From contig JAJYRH010000002.1 of the NCBI GenBank assembly GCA_021794205.1, positions 1 to 64,000 of the forward strand: 64,000 nt of DNA. The letters are read 5' to 3'. Source of the DNA: a bacterium. Its GTDB lineage: Bacteria; Vulcanimicrobiota; Vulcanimicrobiia; Vulcanimicrobiales; Vulcanimicrobiaceae. Both the position numbers and the translations under genes were made by a program. Under the pieces are notes generated by a model. The model was not told the DNA's origin. It saw only the letters and a list, made by a program, of their open reading frames with translations, and made no database searches. Below, one piece after another: positions 41,077 to 57,186 of the stretch (position 1 is its first letter; the number at the start of each line of letters is the position of its first letter).

Positions 41077-42486
41077 GTGGCGAATTCTATTGCTGGTGGG
41101 AAATCACCAAAAGCGATAGTGTGGATCGGCGCCGCGCTCTTCGTCGTAGGTTATTTTGCGCTGAATTTCAACAGTTGGTGGACCTACGATAGTCTCGCCG
41201 ATTTCGGCCTCTTCATGCAGTCCATGAACGATCCGTCGGGGATGCTCAGGAACTCCGTTGAAGGGAGCCATTTCTTCGTTCATTTTTCGCCGATCTACGA
41301 TCTCTTCGCGCCATTCGTGCAGCTCACTCATTCCGTCATTCCGGTGCTCGCGCTTCAATCCGTGGCGGGAGCGCTCGTCGGAATCGGCGCCTACGAGCTC
41401 GCGAAAGGGCGACTCCCCGAAAAATATGCAGTTGCCCTCGCATGCATTGCGTTCCTCTACCCGCCGTTGGGCGGGCTCATCTATAACGCTCCGTACGAAA
41501 CGTGCTTCGCTCCCGCCGCAACGGTATGGTTGTTCGTTTTTGCTATGCGGAGAAATTGGACGGCGACGATTCTCGTCGCGCTTTTCACGCTGGGTATAAA
41601 AGAAGATCAGGGAGTATTTCTTGCCTGGGACGCTCTCGTCGCCGGAGTTTTTGCTTGGAGAACGGGCGATCGACCCCTCCTCAAAGTATCCGGATCGCTG
41701 TTCTTGGCGGCGATCGTCGTACCGGCCGCTTGGCTGATTTGGCGAAACGACGTGCATGCCCACTGGGTAGCGTTGACCCCGATATTTTCGCCGGTCGCAA
41801 GCGGTGTAACGCCGCCGCTGACGAGCGCGTTGCGGCGGATCGGCTTCATGGGCGAAGTTCTCATTCCTCTCGGCTTGTTGCCGCTTTTTAGCGGCCGTTG
41901 GATGCTCTTTGCCATCCCGCCGTTTCTCGAGGTGTTGATTCCGCCGTACGACTCTCTGCGCGACGTACAGGCGCACTATAGCGGCGTGTGGATCGGCTAT
42001 ACGATAATCGCGTTTGTAATGGGTGCATGCCGCCTACATGCCGCACGTCCGCGTCGCCTTCGGCCGTTCGTTCTGTTTAGCTCGATCGCCGCTCCTGCGA
42101 TTCTTATTTTTGCAAGCCCGCTGCATTGGCGCGCGACCGTGCACGCCCGCACTCCGCAGGATGCGGTTCTCGACAAAATTCTTGCCGAAGATTTGCCGCC
42201 GGTGGGGACGATAGGAGTCAGCAACGGCATGTTCGGGCACCTTTGGGAGAGCAGGCGGTTCGAATTGGGGCTCGCGCATCGGCCGTGTTACGCACTGGTC
42301 GACCCAACTTTATTGCCGAATACACAAACGCCGATGGCGGCGTTGGTACGGCAACGAAAATGGGGAACGTACGTGCGGCTCTGGGAGAAGAGCGGCGTGT
42401 CGTTGTATCGCCGGAGGTCCTGCGAGGCGAGCGGGCGTGGGGCTTTGCGATCGTCGTCAGCGACCGCTTCGAAGTATCCCGCGTAA
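41077..42486 (+). CDS. DUF2079 polytopic membrane protein, possibly altered C-terminus
   Basis: A 469-aa protein from GTG 41077. N-terminal features (YFALNFNSWWTYDSLADFGL then FMQSMNDPSGMLRN) and GIKEDQGVFLAWDAL identify the DUF2079 family, membrane proteins related in design to glycosyltransferase-C mannosyltransferases. About ten transmembrane helices. The function is unknown. The last ~15-25 residues (RRSCEASGRGALRSSSATA) are low-complexity and are encoded out of frame over a degenerate livF copy, so the natural C-terminus has probably been replaced. Composition is slightly less GC-rich than in the liv genes, consistent with insertion into the end of the liv operon. Confidence 0.78.
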   Translation: MANSIAGGKSPKAIVWIGAALFVVGYFALNFNSWWTYDSLADFGLFMQSMNDPSGMLRNSVEGSHFFVHFSPIYDLFAPFVQLTHSVIPVLALQSVAGALVGIGAYELAKGRLPEKYAVALACIAFLYPPLGGLIYNAPYETCFAPAATVWLFVFAMRRNWTATILVALFTLGIKEDQGVFLAWDALVAGVFAWRTGDRPLLKVSGSLFLAAIVVPAAWLIWRNDVHAHWVALTPIFSPVASGVTPPLTSALRRIGFMGEVLIPLGLLPLFSGRWMLFAIPPFLEVLIPPYDSLRDVQAHYSGVWIGYTIIAFVMGACRLHAARPRRLRPFVLFSSIAAPAILIFASPLHWRATVHARTPQDAVLDKILAEDLPPVGTIGVSNGMFGHLWESRRFELGLAHRPCYALVDPTLLPNTQTPMAALVRQRKWGTYVRLWEKSGVSLYRRRSCEASGRGALRSSSATASKYPA

Positions 42487-42615: not shown

Positions 42616-43104
42616 ATGCAGGCCGGATCGCTTCCGTTTTCAATAGGGATGGCTCAGGGAACTCCGATTACCGCGATCATCGCGCAAATGATCGCTCCCG
42701 CCGTCTTTATTTTGGCATGCGGAAATTTGCTCAACGTGACGATGACGCGCGTCGTGCGCGCCGTGGACCGGGCGCGCGCGCTCTTCGTCGAGATTCATTC
42801 CCTGCCGTCGGACGGTAATAATCAGCGCGACGCGATTTTGGCCGAGCTTCGGCTCTACCAGGCACGGATTAATTATTTACAGCGAGCGCTTTCGGCATAC
42901 CATCTCGCAATCGGACTTTTCGTTTTGGCGAGTCTTGCGGTAGCTCTCAATGCATTGACGCGCGATGCGCTACCGTGGTTGCCGACGGCGCTGACCGTGG
43001 GCGGAACGCTGACGGTTCTCGTCGGTGCCGTCGGCGTGTTTTTGGAGACGCGCGTTTCGACCGATGCTATGAAAGCGGAGATCGCGCGCGAACTCGGATC
43101 GTAG
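42616..43104 (+). CDS. DUF2721-family membrane protein
   Basis: A 162-aa protein. MIAPAVFILACGNLLNVTMT followed by a soluble helical stretch (RVVRAVDRARALFVEIHSLP) and RRINYLQ-like RINYLQRALSAYHLAIGLFV identifies the DUF2721 family. Three transmembrane helices. The function is unknown. The GGGGAGGG ribosome-binding site used by this gene lies within the end of the livF remnant. Confidence 0.8.
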   Translation: MQAGSLPFSIGMAQGTPITAIIAQMIAPAVFILACGNLLNVTMTRVVRAVDRARALFVEIHSLPSDGNNQRDAILAELRLYQARINYLQRALSAYHLAIGLFVLASLAVALNALTRDALPWLPTALTVGGTLTVLVGAVGVFLETRVSTDAMKAEIARELGS

Positions 43105-43111
43105 CGCTCGC

Positions 43112-44257
43112 TTAGGTAAGGACGAGCGTCTCTTCGCGCCGGTAAACGATCTCGCCGCCGACCATCGTCGCCAACACCTCGTATCGGTCGTCCCAGAAGG
43201 AAAGGTCGGCTCGCATCCCCACCGCAATCCGTCCCACTTCGTTTTGAGCGCCGATCGTTCGCGCGGGTGCGTGCGATGCCGCGACGATCGCTTGTGCGAA
43301 CGGCAAACCGGTAAATGCCATATAATTGCGTAACGCCAGATCCATCGTCAGCGCGCTTCCGGCAATCGTGCCGTCGTCGGCGCGCATGACCCCGCCTTCG
43401 ACGCGATAGCCCGGCCCGGCCGGCGGCATGAAATCGGTGGTGAGAACGACGCGGTCGCCGAGCATGCGATAGAGGACGTCGACCATCGGCGGCGCGACGT
43501 GATGTCCGTCGCAAATAAGTTGAACGGTCGTGCGGCGATCTTGCATGAATGCGGCGAGCAAGGATGGATCGCGGTGGTCGAGCGGCCCCATGCCGTTAAA
43601 TGCATGCGTGAGGCTGCGATAGCCGGTGCCGATCGCCAACAATCCCTCCGCATAGCGCGCCGCCGTATGCCCTGCGGCGCAAGCGACACCGTGTTCGAGC
43701 ATCGTTCGCACGAACTCGCTCGCGCCGTCGACCTCGGGTGCGAGCGTGACCATGACCAGGGCTCCACGGCAGGCGTCGACCATCTCTTGCGCGCGCACGC
43801 TGGAAGCCGGAAGCAAACAATCGCCGCGATGGACGCGGCGAAATTTCGGGTTCAGGAATGGCCCCTCGAAGTGAATGCCGAGGCAGCGCGCTCCCTGTGG
43901 TTGGTTCTCTTCGAGCTCGTGTGCGGCTTCGACGATCTCCGAAGCTGCGTGGAGCATCGATTCCCACGGCGCCGTCATCACCGAGGCGACGAATCCGGTC
44001 GCACCGGTCGCCGCGTATGCGCGCGAGGCGACCGGGACGGCATAGCCCTGGTCGCGATTGAAGAGCATGTCGTCGGCGCCGTTCGTGTGGAGATCGATCA
44101 GGCCGGGTGCGACCGAACAGCCATCGGGGCAGTGATAATCGCTGGTGCCTTCGGCGGGAAGGATCGCTGCGATGCGGCCGCGATCGATCGCGAGCCGCGC
44201 GTAGGCCGAGCTGCCGTCGCCCAAGGCGAGGAAGGCCGGGCCGATGATGGTAGGCAT
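43112..44257 (-). CDS. nagA: N-acetylglucosamine-6-phosphate deacetylase
   Basis: A 381-aa amidohydrolase. PGLIDLHTNGADD (first metal/HxN site), GIHFEGPFLNP (metal Glu), CAAGHTAA and LTHAFNGMGPL (His ligands), CDGHHVAPP and LTTDFMPPAG (catalytic Asp) match NagA. It removes acetate from GlcNAc-6-phosphate in amino-sugar or cell-wall recycling. ATG 44257 was chosen; an in-frame extension to 45067 lies antisense within the dynamin-like gene region and has no NagA character. No nagB or nagE neighbour is in the window. Confidence 0.9.
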   Translation of the reverse strand: MPTIIGPAFLALGDGSSAYARLAIDRGRIAAILPAEGTSDYHCPDGCSVAPGLIDLHTNGADDMLFNRDQGYAVPVASRAYAATGATGFVASVMTAPWESMLHAASEIVEAAHELEENQPQGARCLGIHFEGPFLNPKFRRVHRGDCLLPASSVRAQEMVDACRGALVMVTLAPEVDGASEFVRTMLEHGVACAAGHTAARYAEGLLAIGTGYRSLTHAFNGMGPLDHRDPSLLAAFMQDRRTTVQLICDGHHVAPPMVDVLYRMLGDRVVLTTDFMPPAGPGYRVEGGVMRADDGTIAGSALTMDLALRNYMAFTGLPFAQAIVAASHAPARTIGAQNEVGRIAVGMRADLSFWDDRYEVLATMVGGEIVYRREETLVLT

Positions 44258-44292
44258 ACCTAAACGCTGCTTCGACGGGCCGGGAAGAGCCC

Positions 44293-47070
44293 CTAGCGTC
44301 CGAAGAGGCGGCGAAGAAAGGCCGGGGCGGCTCCGCTCTGCCGCGTCGGCTCCGCCGCGGCGCGCGTAAGGTCGCGGCCGATCTCGGCGCTCGAACGCTC
44401 GAGGCGAGCGAGGCGCTCCATGTGCGAGCCAGCGTGCCCGTCGAGGGTTTCGCGGAGCGCTCCGAGTTCGTTCCACCCTGCAGGCGCTCGCCGCTCCGCA
44501 ATCGCCGTTGCGTACTCTTGCGCCGAGACGGTAAAAATGCGTGCCGTGGGAATCTTCCGTTCGGCGAGATATCGTCCGGCGAGCTCGACGACGTTTCGGC
44601 GTTCTCCCGCGCTCTCGTTGTCGGCCATCGTGTGCGCGAAGAGCATGGGTTTGCCGAAGTCGGCGATACGTTCGTAGAGGCTCAACTCGCGTTCGGAGAG
44701 TTGGCGCGAGAAAAGGCAGAGCACCTCGCTCGCACTCCGCGCCGCCATCAGCGCGATATCCTCGGCGTCGATATCGCCGGAGTCGAATGCGGGAGCGTGC
44801 ACGAGCACCAACTCGCGCGGAAACTTCCACGGCGTGAGGACGAGCACCGGAGAACGCTGCGCGGCTTCGCCCACGGATGCGGTCTCGAGCGCGCTCCACG
44901 CACCTTCGGCGTCGAGTGCGAAAGCCTCGTGCCGTTCGCCGTACCGGACGTGAATTGGGAAACGCGCCATTCCCGGGACCTCGTCGCCGAGAATCGCTTG
45001 GCCGGCGAAGGCGTCGATAAGTGCGGATTTCCCGCGGCGCAGCGCTCCCACAACTGCGACGCGCCAACGCTGCGGGCGCAGCCCGCGAGCGTACGCGGCC
45101 GCGTCGAGGCTCGGATCGCTATGCGCGCGGCGCAGCATCTCGGTGGCGGGATCGGCGGGGGCGATCTCCGGCGCTTCGGCGAGAAACGCGTCGGCGATGC
45201 GTTCGATCTCGACGAGCTCGCGCTCGATCGTCGAGCGGCGCGAGCGCATGGATGCAGCGCGCGCGGAGACGTCGTCGGCGGAGACTGCGGCGAGCGCGCG
45301 TTCGACGCTGCCGATGTCGGCATCGCGCGCCATTCTGCCGGCCTCCAATAAGGCCGCATCGAGCGCGCCGTCGATCCCTTCGATATTCGTCGCGACCCGT
45401 TCGCCTAACGCGGCAACGTCGTTGCGAAGTGCTGGGAAAATCGTCGATCGCAGATCGGCGATAAGCTCGCGCTTCATATACGTCTCTGCGGCTGCGGCGG
45501 CGAAACGCATCGAGATCGCGTGAACGAGTGCGATTGCAGGCCCGCCGATCGCGTCGAGCACGATCGTCGCCGCAATGGCGTCGGCGGGATCTCCGCTCCA
45601 CAGGCTCGTTCCAAGTTGCCCGCCGAAGGCGACCGCCGCCGCTTCAACGAGCGAAAAACGGAGTGGGATATCGGTGCCGCTCGCATGCTCGATCGCCTCG
45701 AGCGGTTCTACGGCGAGCAGCGCGGCGCGCTTGGCGTAGGCTTCGACGGCGTGGGCGGTCACTCGGTCCACGAGAACGTGAAGGCGCGCACGGTCGCGTA
45801 ATTTTGCAATATCGGTGGTATCGAACGCCTGCGCGAGTGCGAGTTCGAGCTCCTCGCCGAGCGCCGCGGTCTCTCGAAGGAGCTGCGAACGGCGAGCGGC
45901 GCTCTCGTCGTGCAGTTGCGCGCGTTGTATATCGATTCGCGCATCGAGTTCGACGAGCTTCGGCGTTCGCGCGAGCAACTCGGCACGTAGGGTCTCCGCG
46001 GGAAGCGCGAGCATAGCGAGGTCGCCGTCGATCTGCACGATCGCATCGCCGCCGATGCGTCGCGCCGCATCGCGAGCGCGACGGAGCCGCGAGCGCCCGG
46101 TACGGGCGATGAGCGATGCATCGAGCGCTTCGAGAAATGGGAAGAAGCGACTCGCGGTAACGCGATCCGAATCGCCGTCGAAGGTTCCTTCGACGTAGTC
46201 GCGCGCGGAAAGTGGATAGACGAACGTTCCCGGTGCGTGAATCGCGGCCAGGCGTTCGATGCGTTCGGTCGCATTTTGCCAAGCGGGGCGCCCGTCGGCG
46301 CTGAGGCGATTCCACAGATCGATTTTGGTCTGGACGATAAAAATGCTATCGATGTGGCGGCGAACGATTCCTAAAAACGAGGCGTCGCCTTCGCTGAAAG
46401 GTTGCTGCGTGTCGATGAGATAGAGCACCGCGTCGGCACCCGGCAAGAAGCCCAGCGTCGCTCGGCGATGGGCGGGATTCGCCGAAGCGAGCCCGGGCGT
46501 ATCGGCGACGAGAAAGCCGCGCGCGAGAAACTCCGAAGGGGTGGTTACGCGGACCCGCGTCGGCGCGTCGCTTTCATCGGTCGTTTCCGCGTGCAGCGTG
46601 CCGACATCACCCGAGCCGACGGCGATAAATCGATTGAGGCGGTCGAGCGGGATACGTTCGGTGCGTCCGCTTTCGTAATACGCGGCCGCCTCGTCGCGCT
46701 CGCCGTTCTCCAATTCCGTAATCGTGGCGGTCGAAGGGTTGATATCGACGGCGAGCAACCCGACGAGCCGCTGCGTCTCGCCTTGCGATTCGCGGCGAAA
46801 CTTTCCTAAAAGCGCGTTGAGGAGGTAGGATTTTCCGCTGGAAAATTCACCGACGACCGCAAGGACGAATTTTCCGCGGGCGAGCATTTCGCGCGCCGAT
46901 CGGACGGGCGCGCTCGAACGTTCGTCGAGCGCGCCTTCAAGAACGAGGAGACGCGCGACGAGATCGTCGCGCGTCCGGTCGTACCGACGCATCGCGTCGG
47001 CGTTTGCGGTGCTCAAGGCGCTCAAATATGCAGTCGCTAGGCGGTTCGGAGATGCGCTTCCAGCATCCAC
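44293..47070 (-). CDS. Tandem bacterial dynamin-like GTPase
   Basis: A 925-aa protein with two dynamin-type GTPase modules. The first (~65-320) has complete motifs: G1 GEFSSGKS, G2 Thr in NPSTATIT, G3 VADTPGL, G4 QTKIDLW. A long helical stalk-like region with a hydrophobic segment (VLDAIGGPAIALVHAISM) follows. The second module (~690-880) has G1 GALRRGKSAL, but its G3 reads HAPAF instead of DxPG, and its G4 (HTMAD) is poor, so it is probably inactive. Bacterial tandem dynamins remodel or fuse membranes. The 5' end overlaps dps by 34 bases; ATG 46992 is an alternative start. Confidence 0.85.
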   Translation of the reverse strand: MDAGSASPNRLATAYLSALSTANADAMRRYDRTRDDLVARLLVLEGALDERSSAPVRSAREMLARGKFVLAVVGEFSSGKSYLLNALLGKFRRESQGETQRLVGLLAVDINPSTATITELENGERDEAAAYYESGRTERIPLDRLNRFIAVGSGDVGTLHAETTDESDAPTRVRVTTPSEFLARGFLVADTPGLASANPAHRRATLGFLPGADAVLYLIDTQQPFSEGDASFLGIVRRHIDSIFIVQTKIDLWNRLSADGRPAWQNATERIERLAAIHAPGTFVYPLSARDYVEGTFDGDSDRVTASRFFPFLEALDASLIARTGRSRLRRARDAARRIGGDAIVQIDGDLAMLALPAETLRAELLARTPKLVELDARIDIQRAQLHDESAARRSQLLRETAALGEELELALAQAFDTTDIAKLRDRARLHVLVDRVTAHAVEAYAKRAALLAVEPLEAIEHASGTDIPLRFSLVEAAAVAFGGQLGTSLWSGDPADAIAATIVLDAIGGPAIALVHAISMRFAAAAAETYMKRELIADLRSTIFPALRNDVAALGERVATNIEGIDGALDAALLEAGRMARDADIGSVERALAAVSADDVSARAASMRSRRSTIERELVEIERIADAFLAEAPEIAPADPATEMLRRAHSDPSLDAAAYARGLRPQRWRVAVVGALRRGKSALIDAFAGQAILGDEVPGMARFPIHVRYGERHEAFALDAEGAWSALETASVGEAAQRSPVLVLTPWKFPRELVLVHAPAFDSGDIDAEDIALMAARSASEVLCLFSRQLSERELSLYERIADFGKPMLFAHTMADNESAGERRNVVELAGRYLAERKIPTARIFTVSAQEYATAIAERRAPAGWNELGALRETLDGHAGSHMERLARLERSSAEIGRDLTRAAAEPTRQSGAAPAFLRRLFGR

Positions 47071-47537
47071 AAGCTCTTATCGGAGGCGCGACAGAGCTCG
47101 GTATAGATATCCGCCGTCGCTTGATCGCCGAGTTTCGCGCTTTCGTCGATCTGCGCGCGTAGGTGATTGGCGAATATCGCCATGCGCTCGGCGAGCGCTT
47201 CGAGGTGCTGCTTGCCGTCAACGGCATGGTGGGGGTACTCACCGAGAATGGAGCGCTCGGCGGCGATTTTTGCGGTGCCCAGGGCGGTTCCGCCGAGTTG
47301 GAGGACGCGTTCGGCGACCAGGTCGACCGCGGCTTCGGCTTCATCGGCGAGCGTGTCGAAGAATTCGTGCAGCGCGATAAAGTGCGGCCCGGCGACGTTC
47401 CAGTGGGCTTGCTTGATCTGCGTCTTGAAGTCGAGCGCCGTCGCCAGCGTCGCATTCAGGAGCGAGATCAGCCGTTCGCGGCTCTGCAGGGGCAGCTCGA
47501 CGCGGGTACGGTGGAGCAAGGAATTTGTTGCGGTCAT
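47037..47537 (-). CDS. dps: Dps-family ferritin-like DNA-protection protein
   Basis: A 166-aa four-helix protein. The inter-subunit ferroxidase site is visible: KQAHWNVAGPHFIALHEFFD and DEAEAAVDLVAERV provide His, His, Asp and Glu. It oxidises and stores iron and protects DNA against peroxide as a dodecamer. The N-terminal tail has only two Arg and no Lys run, so DNA binding may be weak. It is followed by the dynamin-like gene, whose start lies inside dps; co-expression is likely. Confidence 0.9.
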   Translation of the reverse strand: MTATNSLLHRTRVELPLQSRERLISLLNATLATALDFKTQIKQAHWNVAGPHFIALHEFFDTLADEAEAAVDLVAERVLQLGGTALGTAKIAAERSILGEYPHHAVDGKQHLEALAERMAIFANHLRAQIDESAKLGDQATADIYTELCRASDKSLWMLEAHLRTA

Positions 47538-47617
47538 TCTACGGTCATCCTTTACGATTCGGTTGAGGTGCGTAACTCCGCATCAACCACGGTAGCGCGC
47601 CCGAGGTTTCGCCGCCG

Positions 47618-48970
47618 CTACTTTCCTCGAATGAGCGCTAGAGCGGCATCTCGTTCGCGTTCCATGGTCGCGAGATCGTCCCCCTCCACGTTGAGGCGCA
47701 GGAGCGGCTCGGTGTTGGAGGGGCGGATATTCATCCACCAATGAGGATAGGAGATGGTGAGCCCGTCGAGGTGGTCGATCTTGGCGTCGGGATGCGCCGC
47801 CGCGAGGCGCTGAAGGGTCGCCTGGGTGTCCTCGACGTGCGAGTTGATCTCGCCGGAGCGCGCGCGGGTATCGATCGGCGCGATCGTCGCGCTCGCGGGG
47901 AGCGGGCTCTCGCTGAAGAGTTCGAGACAGGACATGAGCGCGATCATTCCGGAGTCCGCATACCAGTTGTCGCGGAAATAGAAATGCCCGCTATGCTCGC
48001 CGCCGAAAACGACATCGTCGTCGCGCATGATCTTTTTAATAATCGAATGGCCGACCTGCGAACGGATCGGGATACCACCGTGCGCGAGAATTTGTTCGGG
48101 AACGCTGCGGCTGCAGATGAGGTTGTAGAGAATCTTTGCGCCGGGATAGCGTTTGAGCGTGCTTATCGCCACGAGAGCCGTCACGGTGCTTCCGTCGATC
48201 AGCTCGCCGCGCTCGTCGACGAGAAACATGCGGTCGGCATCGCCGTCGAAGGCGACGCCGAGATCGCAGCCGTGCTTCCGAACCGCCGCCTGAAGATCGA
48301 CCATATTCTCGGGCTCGATCGGGCTGGCGGGGTGATTGGGAAAATTGCCGTCGAGTTCGAAAAACAGCGGCACGACCGTACACGGAAGGTGTTTGAAAAC
48401 GTGAGGGACCGTCGCCCCGGCCATTCCATTGCCGGCATCGATGGCTATTTTGAACGGCTTCACCTTCGTGCGGTCGATAAAGCTCAATGCGTGCTCGGCG
48501 AAATCGTCGAGAACGAAACGTTCGGAGATGCTGCCCGGCTTCTCCGCCTTGGGCGGCAGATCGTCGGCGAGAATGCGGTCGCGAATTTCGCGCAGCCCGC
48601 CGTCGAATGAAATTGCCTGCGCTTCGGAGCGCGTAAATTTCATTCCGTTATATTTCGCGGGGTTGTGCGATGCGGTGATCATCACGCCGCCGTCGAAGCC
48701 GTACTTTCCGACCGCAAAATAGAGGGCGTCGGTGGAGACGAGACCGATCGATACGACGTCGGCCCCGGCCTCGGTCGCCCCGCGTGCGAGAGCGGCAAAG
48801 AGCTCTTCGCCGCTCGGCCGCATATCGCGCCCGACGACGATGCGCTTCGCTCCAAGGAGCGGGACGAAGCAGCGGCCGATTTTGTAGGCTAAGTCGACGT
48901 TAATCTCGGATGGAAAGACGCCCCGGACGTCGTAGGACTTGAAAACGCTCTCGATCGCTGATTTTTCCAT
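47618..48970 (-). CDS. manB: Phosphomannomutase/phosphoglucomutase
   Basis: A 450-aa alpha-D-phosphohexomutase. The phosphoserine loop is VMITASHNPAKYNG (~100), the metal loop is VAFDGDADRMFLVDE, the sugar-binding loop is GGEHSGHFYFRD, and the phosphate-binding motif is RPSNTEPLLRL. Length and loops match the ManB/AlgC bifunctional type, which converts Man-6-P/Glc-6-P to the 1-phosphates for nucleotide-sugar and polysaccharide synthesis. It is divergent from the SpoIIE-like gene with only three bases between the start codons, as annotated. Confidence 0.9.
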   Translation of the reverse strand: MEKSAIESVFKSYDVRGVFPSEINVDLAYKIGRCFVPLLGAKRIVVGRDMRPSGEELFAALARGATEAGADVVSIGLVSTDALYFAVGKYGFDGGVMITASHNPAKYNGMKFTRSEAQAISFDGGLREIRDRILADDLPPKAEKPGSISERFVLDDFAEHALSFIDRTKVKPFKIAIDAGNGMAGATVPHVFKHLPCTVVPLFFELDGNFPNHPASPIEPENMVDLQAAVRKHGCDLGVAFDGDADRMFLVDERGELIDGSTVTALVAISTLKRYPGAKILYNLICSRSVPEQILAHGGIPIRSQVGHSIIKKIMRDDDVVFGGEHSGHFYFRDNWYADSGMIALMSCLELFSESPLPASATIAPIDTRARSGEINSHVEDTQATLQRLAAAHPDAKIDHLDGLTISYPHWWMNIRPSNTEPLLRLNVEGDDLATMERERDAALALIRGK

Positions 48971-48973
48971 GGC

Positions 48974-50365
48974 TTGCGACGCTCTTCGGAGGGGCTCTCT
49001 ACGAAACCTACCATCCGATTCGTGGGAACGATTGCTTCGTCGCTCTTCATCGCGGCGGCAATCTTTTTCTCGCTGCGCGTCGCCACGGTAACGAGAGCGC
49101 GCATCGCCGACCTCCTCGCTCGGGAGCATGTGGTGACGAATGCCGCTCTACTTGTCAGCCGCATCGCATTGGCGCGCGTCGATATCGTCGGGGCGCTCCA
49201 AGTAGAAGGAGGGCTTCCGAGCGCCGCCGCGCGCTCGAGCTACCGGCATGCCGTGACGCTGCGCCGAAAGCAACTGGCACAGATACGCTCGATCGTCGCT
49301 AGGGAGCGCCTGGCAAACGCTGCGATAGCCTTACATTTGTACGGCGGCGTCGACCGCGTCCTACGGCGGGAGATCGCCGAGCCGATCTTCGCCGGCAAAC
49401 TCATCCCGAGCGACGAGATCGAGGAATCCATTCGCATATTATCGTCGGTCGAAGGGAATTACGAACGAAGCATCGCGCTGGATTTGGCCCACCGAAGCGA
49501 CGAACTCGACGCTCGTTTGAATTCGACGATCGACTCGGCGATTTATTTGCGTTCGTTGTGGTTATTGGCGTTCGGCGTCTTCGCGCTCGCAATCAATATC
49601 TACAGCGCTCGCCTCTATCGGCAGCTCGCCGACGAACGCTCCGTTACGGCGATATTGCAGCGAGCCTTTATCAGCCGTCACATTCCGCTCCCGAACTGCG
49701 AATTGGGAAGCGCGTACGAATCGGCCGACTCGCACGCCGCAGTGGGAGGAGATCTCTTCGACGTCTATCGTTTATCGAACGACCTCGCACTCGTGCTCAT
49801 CGCCGACGTGAGCGGGAAGGGGATCGACGCGGCGGTGATAACGGCATTCGTGAAATTCACGGTTCGCGGAATCGCCTTGCGTCGTCGGGACCCCGCGCAG
49901 ATTTTAAGCGAATTCAATATCGCATTCGGGCAGACCGTAGAGAACCCGTACCTCTTCGTGTCGATGTTCGTCGGAATCCTCGATACGGTGAAGGGCGAAC
50001 TCACGTATGCGAGCGCCGGGCACGATTCGGCGTTCGTTCGGCACGGCCACGAGGTGCGGCAATTGAGCGTTACCGGCCCGGTCCTCGGAGTGATGGTGGA
50101 ACCCTACGATACCAAATCGGTCATTTTCGACGACGGAGATTCCTTGGTGCTATCGACCGATGGGCTGACCGAGGCGCGCAATACCGCCGGAGAGCTGCTC
50201 GGCGAGAACGGCGCGATGGAGATCATCGCGGAGGCTCCCGAGGCACCGCAGCAACTCGCCGATCACATTATCGCCGCCATCCGCGAGCGCTCCGGCGGGC
50301 GGCTTCGGGACGACGTGGCGATCCTTGCGGTGCGCGTTCGCGTTCACGAGGTTCATCTCGCGTAA
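48974..50365 (+). CDS. Membrane-bound SpoIIE-type (PP2C) serine phosphatase
   Basis: About 463 aa. Two transmembrane helices (~18-38 and ~195-212) enclose a ~150-residue helical sensor region. The C-terminal SpoIIE/PP2C domain has VGGDLFDVY, LIADVSGKGIDAAV, YASAGHDSAFV, STDGLTEARN and LRDDVAILAV with the metal Asp residues. It probably dephosphorylates an anti-sigma-factor antagonist in response to an extracellular or membrane signal; no such partner is nearby. The TTG at 48974 is the first possible start, almost touching the divergent manB; GTG 49022 is an alternative. Confidence 0.82.
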   Translation: MRRSSEGLSTKPTIRFVGTIASSLFIAAAIFFSLRVATVTRARIADLLAREHVVTNAALLVSRIALARVDIVGALQVEGGLPSAAARSSYRHAVTLRRKQLAQIRSIVARERLANAAIALHLYGGVDRVLRREIAEPIFAGKLIPSDEIEESIRILSSVEGNYERSIALDLAHRSDELDARLNSTIDSAIYLRSLWLLAFGVFALAINIYSARLYRQLADERSVTAILQRAFISRHIPLPNCELGSAYESADSHAAVGGDLFDVYRLSNDLALVLIADVSGKGIDAAVITAFVKFTVRGIALRRRDPAQILSEFNIAFGQTVENPYLFVSMFVGILDTVKGELTYASAGHDSAFVRHGHEVRQLSVTGPVLGVMVEPYDTKSVIFDDGDSLVLSTDGLTEARNTAGELLGENGAMEIIAEAPEAPQQLADHIIAAIRERSGGRLRDDVAILAVRVRVHEVHLA

Positions 50366-55104: not shown

Positions 55105-56171
55105 CGGTCGATCTGCGCGACCCGCGGCGCCCGCTCGAACCGGAGTTGGCCGAATTTGAGGCGCTCGCGCGTGCGGTCGGCGTCACCATCTGCGAGCGCG
55201 TCGTACAGAAACGCGATGCGCCGGATCCGGCGACGCTGGTCGGTTCGGGCTTGCTCGCGGAACTGCCGGGGCGGGCCGCCGCGCTGGATTGCAACCTGCT
55301 GCTGGTGTTCAACGAACTTCGTCCGCGACAGCGCAAGAACATCGAGAAGGCGCTGTCGCTGCCGATCGTCGACCGCACCATGCTGATTCTCGATGTGTTC
55401 GCGCAGCGCGCGCGTTCGCACGAAGGAAAACTCCAAGTGGAGCTGGCGCAATTACGCTACCGCTCGACGAAGCTCGCCGGCGGCGGCGCCGATCTCTCGC
55501 GTCTGGGCGGCGGGGTTGGAACCCGAGGCCCCGGTGAAACGAAGTTGGAGGTCGACCGCCGCCGCATCGCCGCGCGTATTCTCTTGCTGGAGAAGCGCAT
55601 GGGCGAGGTGCGCCGCGGGCGGGCGACGCGCCGCCGCGAGCCCGGAACCGAACTCCGCGTCGCGCTGGTCGGCTACACGAACGTCGGCAAATCCTCGCTG
55701 CTCAATGCGATGGCACGCAGCGACATCTTCGTTGCCGACCAGCCCTTCGCCACGCTCGACCCCACCACGCGCCGCGTTTACCTCGCGCCGGGGATTTTCG
55801 CGCGCATCAGCGATACCGTCGGTTTCATCACCGATCTTCCCACCGAACTCGTCGAAGCGTTTCGCGCGACGCTCGAAGAACTCGACGAAGCCGACGTGTT
55901 GGTGGAAGTGCTCGATGCCTCGAATCCTGATACGCCGCGACAACGCGCCGCCGTCGAAGCGATCCTTCACGATCTCCATCTCGAAGAGACTCCGCGGCTG
56001 GTCGCGTTCAACAAAGGCGACGCCGCACGCGATGACGTCGGCATCACCCCCGATGCGTTCGTTCTCAGCGCGCGCACCGGCGAGGGGATCGATGCGCTGC
56101 GAGCGGCACTTATCGAACGTGCATCGGATGTGCGAGCTCGTTCGCCGATTGCTCCGCAAGCCACACCGTAA
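55050..56171 (+). CDS. hflX: Ribosome-associated GTPase HflX
   Basis: A 373-aa protein. The N-terminal HflX domain carries VVQKRDAPDPATLVGSG, FNELRPRQRKNIEKAL, RTMLILDVFAQRARSHEGK and GGGVGTRGPGETKLEVDRR. The GTPase domain has G1 GYTNVGKSS, G2 TLDPTTR, G3 DTVGFITDLP and G4 FNKGD (degenerate NKxD). It splits stalled 70S ribosomes under stress. GTG 55050 lies 55 bases inside btuF with GAAGGA upstream, so its translation is coupled to that gene. The 3' end overlaps the convergent channel gene by about 60 bases. Confidence 0.93.
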   Translation: MAHSTTATDSKPQRALVVAVDLRDPRRPLEPELAEFEALARAVGVTICERVVQKRDAPDPATLVGSGLLAELPGRAAALDCNLLLVFNELRPRQRKNIEKALSLPIVDRTMLILDVFAQRARSHEGKLQVELAQLRYRSTKLAGGGADLSRLGGGVGTRGPGETKLEVDRRRIAARILLLEKRMGEVRRGRATRRREPGTELRVALVGYTNVGKSSLLNAMARSDIFVADQPFATLDPTTRRVYLAPGIFARISDTVGFITDLPTELVEAFRATLEELDEADVLVEVLDASNPDTPRQRAAVEAILHDLHLEETPRLVAFNKGDAARDDVGITPDAFVLSARTGEGIDALRAALIERASDVRARSPIAPQATP

Positions 56172-57186
56172 CGTCGGAGGCGAGCCAGCGCGCCATCTGT
56201 TCGAGGTGTCCGCTATAAAAATGACGGATGCGCGAGAACGCGGCGTACGCTTCGTGCCGGTCGCGCACGGTATATCCCGCGGATTCGAGGCGATCGCAGG
56301 CGAGCCCGAACTGCGTTTCGTCGATGCGCTCTCCCGGTGCGTGCGGCAGCAAGAAATAATTCGCCAGGTCGCTGAGCAGGTGCCGTGCCGCCCCGAGCAG
56401 CGCGCGCGCTTCGGCTTGCGCGTAGGGTGCTTCCACGGTGGTCACGGTGATCGCGGCGGCATCGAGCACCGCCCCGAGCGAACTCATCCACGAGTGGTTG
56501 TCGTGCGCGGAACGGAAGAGCGCGATCTGCGGATAGGCGAGCGTTTGATCGAGGGTGCTGACGCACCACGATTCCGCTTCGCGCAGGAAAGCCGCGAGTT
56601 CTTGCGGCGATTTCGTCTCCGCGCAAAACATCAACAGGCCGATCCCGCTCGGCGGCGCACCCGCGCGCGCGCTCAAACGTACGACGAACTCTTCGCGTCG
56701 ATTGAACGCCGCGAGCATCGTGAGGAGAAATGAGGCGAGGACGGCGATGATGGTGACGCCGGTCGCCCCCGTCATGAGCGCGACCAGCCGGGTGAGGCCG
56801 TTCCCGGGAACGATGTCGCCGAAGCCGATGGTTAGCAACGTAACGCCGGCAAAATAGATCGAACCCGGCCCGTTGGGGTGCGGGTGCAGATGGTCGCGCA
56901 AGGCATAGAAGATGCCGCCGAAGCCGAGAATGAGGAGTGTAATCCAGATCCCGATCTGCACGAAGAGATTGAAAGGCGCGAAGAGCGAGAGGAATTCGTC
57001 GCGACGTCCGTGTTCGTTGAAGTTCGCGGCGATACGCTTCCAGAGCGGCCAACCAGCGCGCGAGAGCGTTCCGCTCGCGCGCCACGTACGGTTCGATGCG
57101 CGCGGAATAACGGCGAGAAAAATATCGCGTAGCGAGAGCGCAACGAGGACGACACCACCGAGGGCGGCGAGGAGATCGAGCCACAT
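56110..57186 (-). CDS. Two-helix potassium-channel-like membrane protein
   Basis: About 358 aa. After an N-terminal helix (LLAALGGVVLVALSLRDIFL) comes a 2TM pore unit: IGIWITLLILGFGGIFYAL, the filter TLLTIGFGDIVPG, then VTIIAVLASFLLTMLAAF. TIGFGD is the K+ selectivity filter. The ~200-residue cytoplasmic C-terminus has no recognisable RCK domain. The ATG at 57186 (MWLDLL) was chosen over 57237. It is convergent with hflX and divergent from the prepilin-like gene. A K+ conductance is likely; gating is unknown. Confidence 0.82.
   Translation of the reverse strand: MWLDLLAALGGVVLVALSLRDIFLAVIPRASNRTWRASGTLSRAGWPLWKRIAANFNEHGRRDEFLSLFAPFNLFVQIGIWITLLILGFGGIFYALRDHLHPHPNGPGSIYFAGVTLLTIGFGDIVPGNGLTRLVALMTGATGVTIIAVLASFLLTMLAAFNRREEFVVRLSARAGAPPSGIGLLMFCAETKSPQELAAFLREAESWCVSTLDQTLAYPQIALFRSAHDNHSWMSSLGAVLDAAAITVTTVEAPYAQAEARALLGAARHLLSDLANYFLLPHAPGERIDETQFGLACDRLESAGYTVRDRHEAYAAFSRIRHFYSGHLEQMARWLASDVTVWLAEQSANELAHPMHVR

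Follow-up and report, generated by a model that had tools for sequence, protein, structure and literature searches.

A predicted dynamin with a fixed pseudo-GTPase second head in an uncultured bacterium of the Ca. Eremiobacterota

The window analysed here, 64,000 nucleotides from a MAG of an uncultured bacterium of the Ca. Eremiobacterota (Vulcanimicrobiota), encodes a dynamin-like protein in which a complete dynamin appears to be joined to a second, catalytically degenerate G domain. The architecture of the protein, the fixed loss of motifs in its rear domain, the purifying selection acting on it and its operon-like gene context were all computed. Our preferred reading, which we put at about an even chance, is that of an active membrane dynamin under cis control by its pseudo-GTPase rear head, set in an envelope-sugar context. 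The combination of a working and a fixed non-working head in one chain, found across many genera, makes the role of the silent partner testable by simple deletion or mutation. An uncultured phylum also gains a dynamin whose gene context is clear; our literature search for a dynamin in Eremiobacterota returned only work on ribosomal protein trees.

The reverse-strand open frame at 44293-47070 has 925 codons and two Dynamin_N stretches. Its longest version begins at a GTG (47070) within dps (47037..47537, reverse strand; DNA starvation/stationary phase protection protein, NCBIfam NF006975, 187 bits), the upstream neighbour in the host genus, and an earlier note on this DNA had the gene start inside dps. 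We reject such a start because of in-frame stops in close relatives, which fall between the position of this GTG and codon 16 in four of the seven same-genus orthologues (L006, L008, L010 and L015). Codon 16 itself, a TTG at 47025, lies 12 bases beyond the dps stop codon and is kept in all eight sequences compared, and the conserved protein of many related genera starts at about residue 19 with ATG or GTG. The open frame, its two Dynamin_N stretches and the comparison of orthologue starts place the dynamin-like gene at 44293..47025 on the reverse strand, starting most likely at TTG 47025 or, alternatively, at ATG 46992. The range first given, 44293-47537, does hold a real dynamin gene but takes in dps itself as well. 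Residue numbers throughout follow the GTG-based 925-codon frame. Two related loci, L060 (G063) and L061 (G029), have the dynamin frame broken near residues 206-230, through either a frameshift or an assembly error.

The front of the protein has two features of a BDLP/IniA-type dynamin, a G domain with G1-G4 and a helical neck and trunk behind it. The catalytic G domain (46135..46893, reverse strand; residues 60-312) is the best-conserved region, and the claim that module one has all G motifs is confirmed: G1 GEFSSGKS, the switch-one Thr of G2, G3 DTPG and G4 TKID are present, and their key residues do not vary across 41 aligned sequences from the host's family. The whole protein scores 82 bits against Dynamin_N, and module one matches BDLP1 by profile at E 1e-25. 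The helical neck and trunk (45151..46134, reverse strand; residues 313-640) complete, together with the G domain, a whole BDLP1/IniA-type dynamin in an AlphaFold2 model (m569be3b92baa) that was built from a shallow set of 11 sequences and has a mean pLDDT of 72, a pTM of 0.66 and a pLDDT of about 40-80 in the pseudo-G region. Model residues 1-609 (protein residues 27-635) align with the whole of BDLP1 (2j69) at Z 19.1, with 559 aligned residues and an rmsd of 5.5, and with IniA at Z 16.0. For model residues 641-890, G domains are the only matches (EHD4 at Z 11.9, EHD2 at Z 10.5, EngB at Z 10.1); what follows about residue 640 is a G-like domain and C-terminal helices, so that the chain has a single stalk. 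Because the front matches BDLP1 and IniA over their whole length and the rear matches G domains only, the model gives good support to one full BDLP1/IniA-type dynamin with an added C-terminal G-like head, and not to two dynamins. The label of tandem dynamin given earlier goes too far, since only the first module (residues 27-635) is a whole dynamin. When modelled by itself, the pseudo-G domain came out poorly (pLDDT 55.5), and its fold matches, among them IniA at Z 11.9 over 145 residues, are for this reason taken as supporting only. Hydrophobicity along the protein peaks in the stalk, at AIAATIVLDAIGGPAIALV (45523..45579, reverse strand; residues 498-516). This stretch recurs as the top hydrophobic 19-mer at or near the same residues in 40 of 41 sequences, and is a candidate for a paddle-like contact through which the protein might touch the membrane.

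The rear pseudo-G domain (44413..45093, reverse strand; residues ~660-886) keeps its P-loop, carries VHxPxFDxG in place of DxPG and has lost the G4 Lys. In the 41-sequence alignment the retained P-loop GALRRGKSALIDAF (45007..45048, reverse strand; residues 675-688) includes GALRRGKS, with G675, R679, G680 and K681 invariant and Ser or Thr at position 682 throughout. The degenerate G3, LVHAPAFDSGD (44773..44805, reverse strand; residues 756-766), has invariant His758, Pro760, Phe762, Asp763 and Gly765; the canonical Asp is His in 41/41 sequences and the Gly is Ala or Pro. At G4, all 40 sequences that align there have Ile, Met, Leu or Phe instead of Lys, with the Asp retained. The earlier note was therefore right that module two keeps a P-loop and has lost DxPG, and a search for relatives with an intact second G3 returned none, the loss being present in every relative checked. 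Since the G3 and G4 losses are common to all aligned relatives, they represent a fixed family trait rather than a quirk of a single genome.

The rear domain can nonetheless be recognised as a G domain. Profile comparison aligns most of its length with the G domain of mitofusin-1 (E 1.2e-5), with VHAPAFD opposite VDSPGTD, and aligns module one with module two at an hhalign probability of 95%; judged by sequence, the two modules are mutually related. A pseudo-GTPase has a G fold from which the catalytic motifs are gone, and this is the state found here, with the fold given by model and profile and with the G3 Asp and Gly and the G4 Lys missing. Selection bears on the same point. Identity to other genera averages 69% in the front G domain, 42% in the stalk, 62% in the rear domain and 36% in the tail, and the corresponding median dN/dS values within the genus are 0.045, 0.124, 0.077 and 0.249. 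The low dN/dS and high identity of the rear domain indicate that it is kept by selection and rule out decay, and the sequences identify it as a fixed pseudo-GTPase.

It is improbable, in our estimate, that the rear domain has remained an NTPase that works with a rewritten G3 in which His758 or Asp763 replaces the canonical Asp. The H-x-P-x-F-D-x-G motif indeed varies no more than a catalytic motif would, and both the P-loop and the Asp of G4 are retained; against this, the domain has lost the Mg-binding Asp, the DxxG Gly and the Lys of G4, and among the comparisons made we encountered no known G protein with such a motif. A two-headed dynamin of the DynA type, with two equivalent halves that tether and fuse membranes, is very improbable. 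Bacillus subtilis DynA does resemble the window protein in having two dynamin-type G domains in a single chain, and it matches NCBIfam DynA weakly, at 45.8 bits where the cut-off is 1600. DynA, however, consists of two whole dynamins (profile length 1187); both of its heads bind GTP (PMC8844932), and both GTPases must be functional (PMC6104087, PMC8844932). The window protein has neither two complete units nor, by sequence, two functional GTPases: its second unit amounts to a lone, degenerate G domain, and the chain offers a single helical stalk with a single paddle-like stretch.

The conserved gene context consists of two sugar enzymes. Upstream lies pgm (47618..48970, reverse strand, start inferred), of phosphomannomutase/phosphoglucomutase type with Pfam PGM_PMM domains I-IV, and downstream lies nagA (43112..44263, reverse strand), which is N-acetylglucosamine-6-phosphate deacetylase-like and matches TIGR00221 at 200.7 bits, below the curated cut-off of 225.65. 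Both are conserved neighbours: the order pgm-dynamin-nagA, on one strand, is the same in the window and in each of the 42 related loci where all three genes occur together, and in the related loci nagA begins 33-220 nt past the dynamin match. Of the 19 examined genomes that lack the dynamin, 16 retain pgm ahead of nagA. Across the family (window 43112-49129; L136-L154), the pairing of pgm with nagA is stable, and the variable slot between them can hold the dynamin, dps, both or nothing. Divergent from pgm is a gene for a SpoIIE-type phosphatase (48974-50365, forward strand) that many related loci retain. Our promoter scan of 42900-49300 found no promoter-like site, and terminator-like sites were at about twice the shuffled mean. 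The dynamin probably shares a transcript with pgm and nagA, which points to upkeep of envelope or peptidoglycan sugars, not to iron storage.

The proposal of a membrane and iron stress response that couples the dynamin to dps draws on their adjacency, which is seen in all same-genus loci that reach dps and in L073 and L076. These are the only places where dps lies between pgm and the dynamin, and the copy in L076 is divergent. When the conservation of the pairing was checked, dps proved not to be a conserved neighbour, being absent from 33 of the 43 pgm-dynamin-nagA loci (window plus 42 relatives); in G052 it occupies the pgm-nagA slot with the dynamin absent. Window-type dps is present in 11 of 99 family genomes, and the dynamin occurs in three of the four dps-bearing lineages against 27 of 38 genera overall, so that the two genes co-occur no more than expected. 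With dps patchy and pgm and nagA constant, the conserved link is to the sugar-phosphate and amino-sugar enzymes, and that to dps is local: dps is an occasional neighbour outside the conserved unit, not a partner. Nothing beyond adjacency in one genus speaks for a membrane-stress response tied to iron storage; on synteny we reject the coupling, giving it almost no credence.

That the protein combines a catalytic and a regulatory G domain in one chain, as first suggested, remains the best reading, with the G3 loss common to every relative and the mechanism inferred. The front domain would bind and hydrolyse GTP and the trunk would bind and bend membrane, and the rear domain, with its P-loop and without the G3 Asp and G4 Lys, may bind nucleotide. 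As a partner that does not hydrolyse, it would bind in cis to the front domain, by pairing or docking, and would thereby set the timing of front-domain firing or assembly. Precedents for this reading are DynA, both heads of which bind GTP (PMC8844932), the Cj-DLP1/2 pair (PMC6104087) and the cyanobacterial dynamins that lie beside HSR1 proteins (PMC5827413). A more specific version, which we advance tentatively and rate somewhat below even, is that the rear pseudo-G domain is a built-in dimer partner: with a front domain, either its own or that of a neighbouring chain, it would form an asymmetric G-G dimer and gate hydrolysis by that front domain. If this is true, the protein would be a dynamin regulated in cis within a single chain, with one working head and a second that does no more than sense nucleotide. 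The literature that we searched holds no description of a cis-regulated single-chain bacterial dynamin with such a silent head.

Homologous non-hydrolysing G domains can be plain binding modules, which counts against cis regulation. The rear domain might be a docking module, nucleotide-free or nucleotide-independent, that serves to bring in another protein, such as an envelope enzyme, and has no part in regulating the front GTPase. Such a role would fit the loss of the G3 Asp and G4 Lys, and several pseudo-GTPases serve as scaffolds, two of the three in p190RhoGAP binding no nucleotide (PMC10211241). The P-loop Lys and Ser/Thr are, however, invariant in 41 sequences, which a nucleotide-free domain would hardly explain, and we consider the docking module unlikely.

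Bacterial dynamins are mostly unequal pairs. Several known systems share part of the arrangement seen here. BDLP1 of Nostoc punctiforme and IniA of Mycobacterium resemble residues 27-635 in their whole-length fold of G domain, neck and trunk, but end there, whereas the window protein runs 290 residues further with its pseudo-G domain. Campylobacter Cj-DLP1/Cj-DLP2 and the cyanobacterial Tandem A/B are, as here, unequal dynamin-type partners (PMC6104087, PMC5827413), but are encoded by separate genes; Cj-DLP1/2 are inactive unless both are present (PMC6104087). In an Anabaena plasmid dynamin pair, both members retain DTPG and TKxD. In one cyanobacterial dynamin clade, the neighbouring gene encodes a GTP-binding protein of HSR1 type that has no apparent GTPase activity (PMC5827413). 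Compared by description, this again places a dynamin beside an apparently non-GTPase GTP-binding protein, although HSR1 comes from a separate gene in another phylum and the head described here is fused into the chain. Degenerate G domains are also retained in the GTPase-regulating protein p190RhoGAP (PMC5593906, PMC10211241), a eukaryotic Rho-type regulator and no dynamin.

Strong module-two matches come from 49 genomes, all in the host's family, and those elsewhere in the phylum are weak, at about 30 bits or less. Mapped on the NagA tree, the presence of the dynamin requires at least 11 changes, eight of them forced by well-supported branches of this one gene's tree, which implies that the dynamin was lost (or gained) repeatedly at one locus. 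Beyond the phylum, the comparison covered one GTDB contig scan for close relatives, the PDB and plasmids. The single contig scan returned nothing beyond close relatives, so that the dynamin may also occur outside this phylum, and the plasmid relatives matched the front G domain only, none reaching 80% query coverage.

A second dynamin in the same genome seems unlikely from the further Dynamin_N matches, which are short P-loop matches; the one translated, at C15, reads as MnmE by its sequence. In the window, a weak Dynamin_N P-loop match at 55659-55766 (20.9 bits, below cut-off) lies in a 446-residue frame (55393-56733, forward strand) or in another; at E 0.01 the 446-residue frame matches neither Pfam nor NCBIfam, and it is possibly non-coding. 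A gene for a DUF2079 membrane protein (41077-42486, forward strand) stands between DUF2721 and livF, as it does in L008 and L011, and is missing from most same-genus loci, suggesting recent insertion or loss. Among the plasmids, pFN9B of Lysinibacillus capsici (L156) carries three consecutive dynamin-family genes. No P-loop can be recognised in the 820 residues read of the first, which may encode another pseudo-GTPase dynamin partner.
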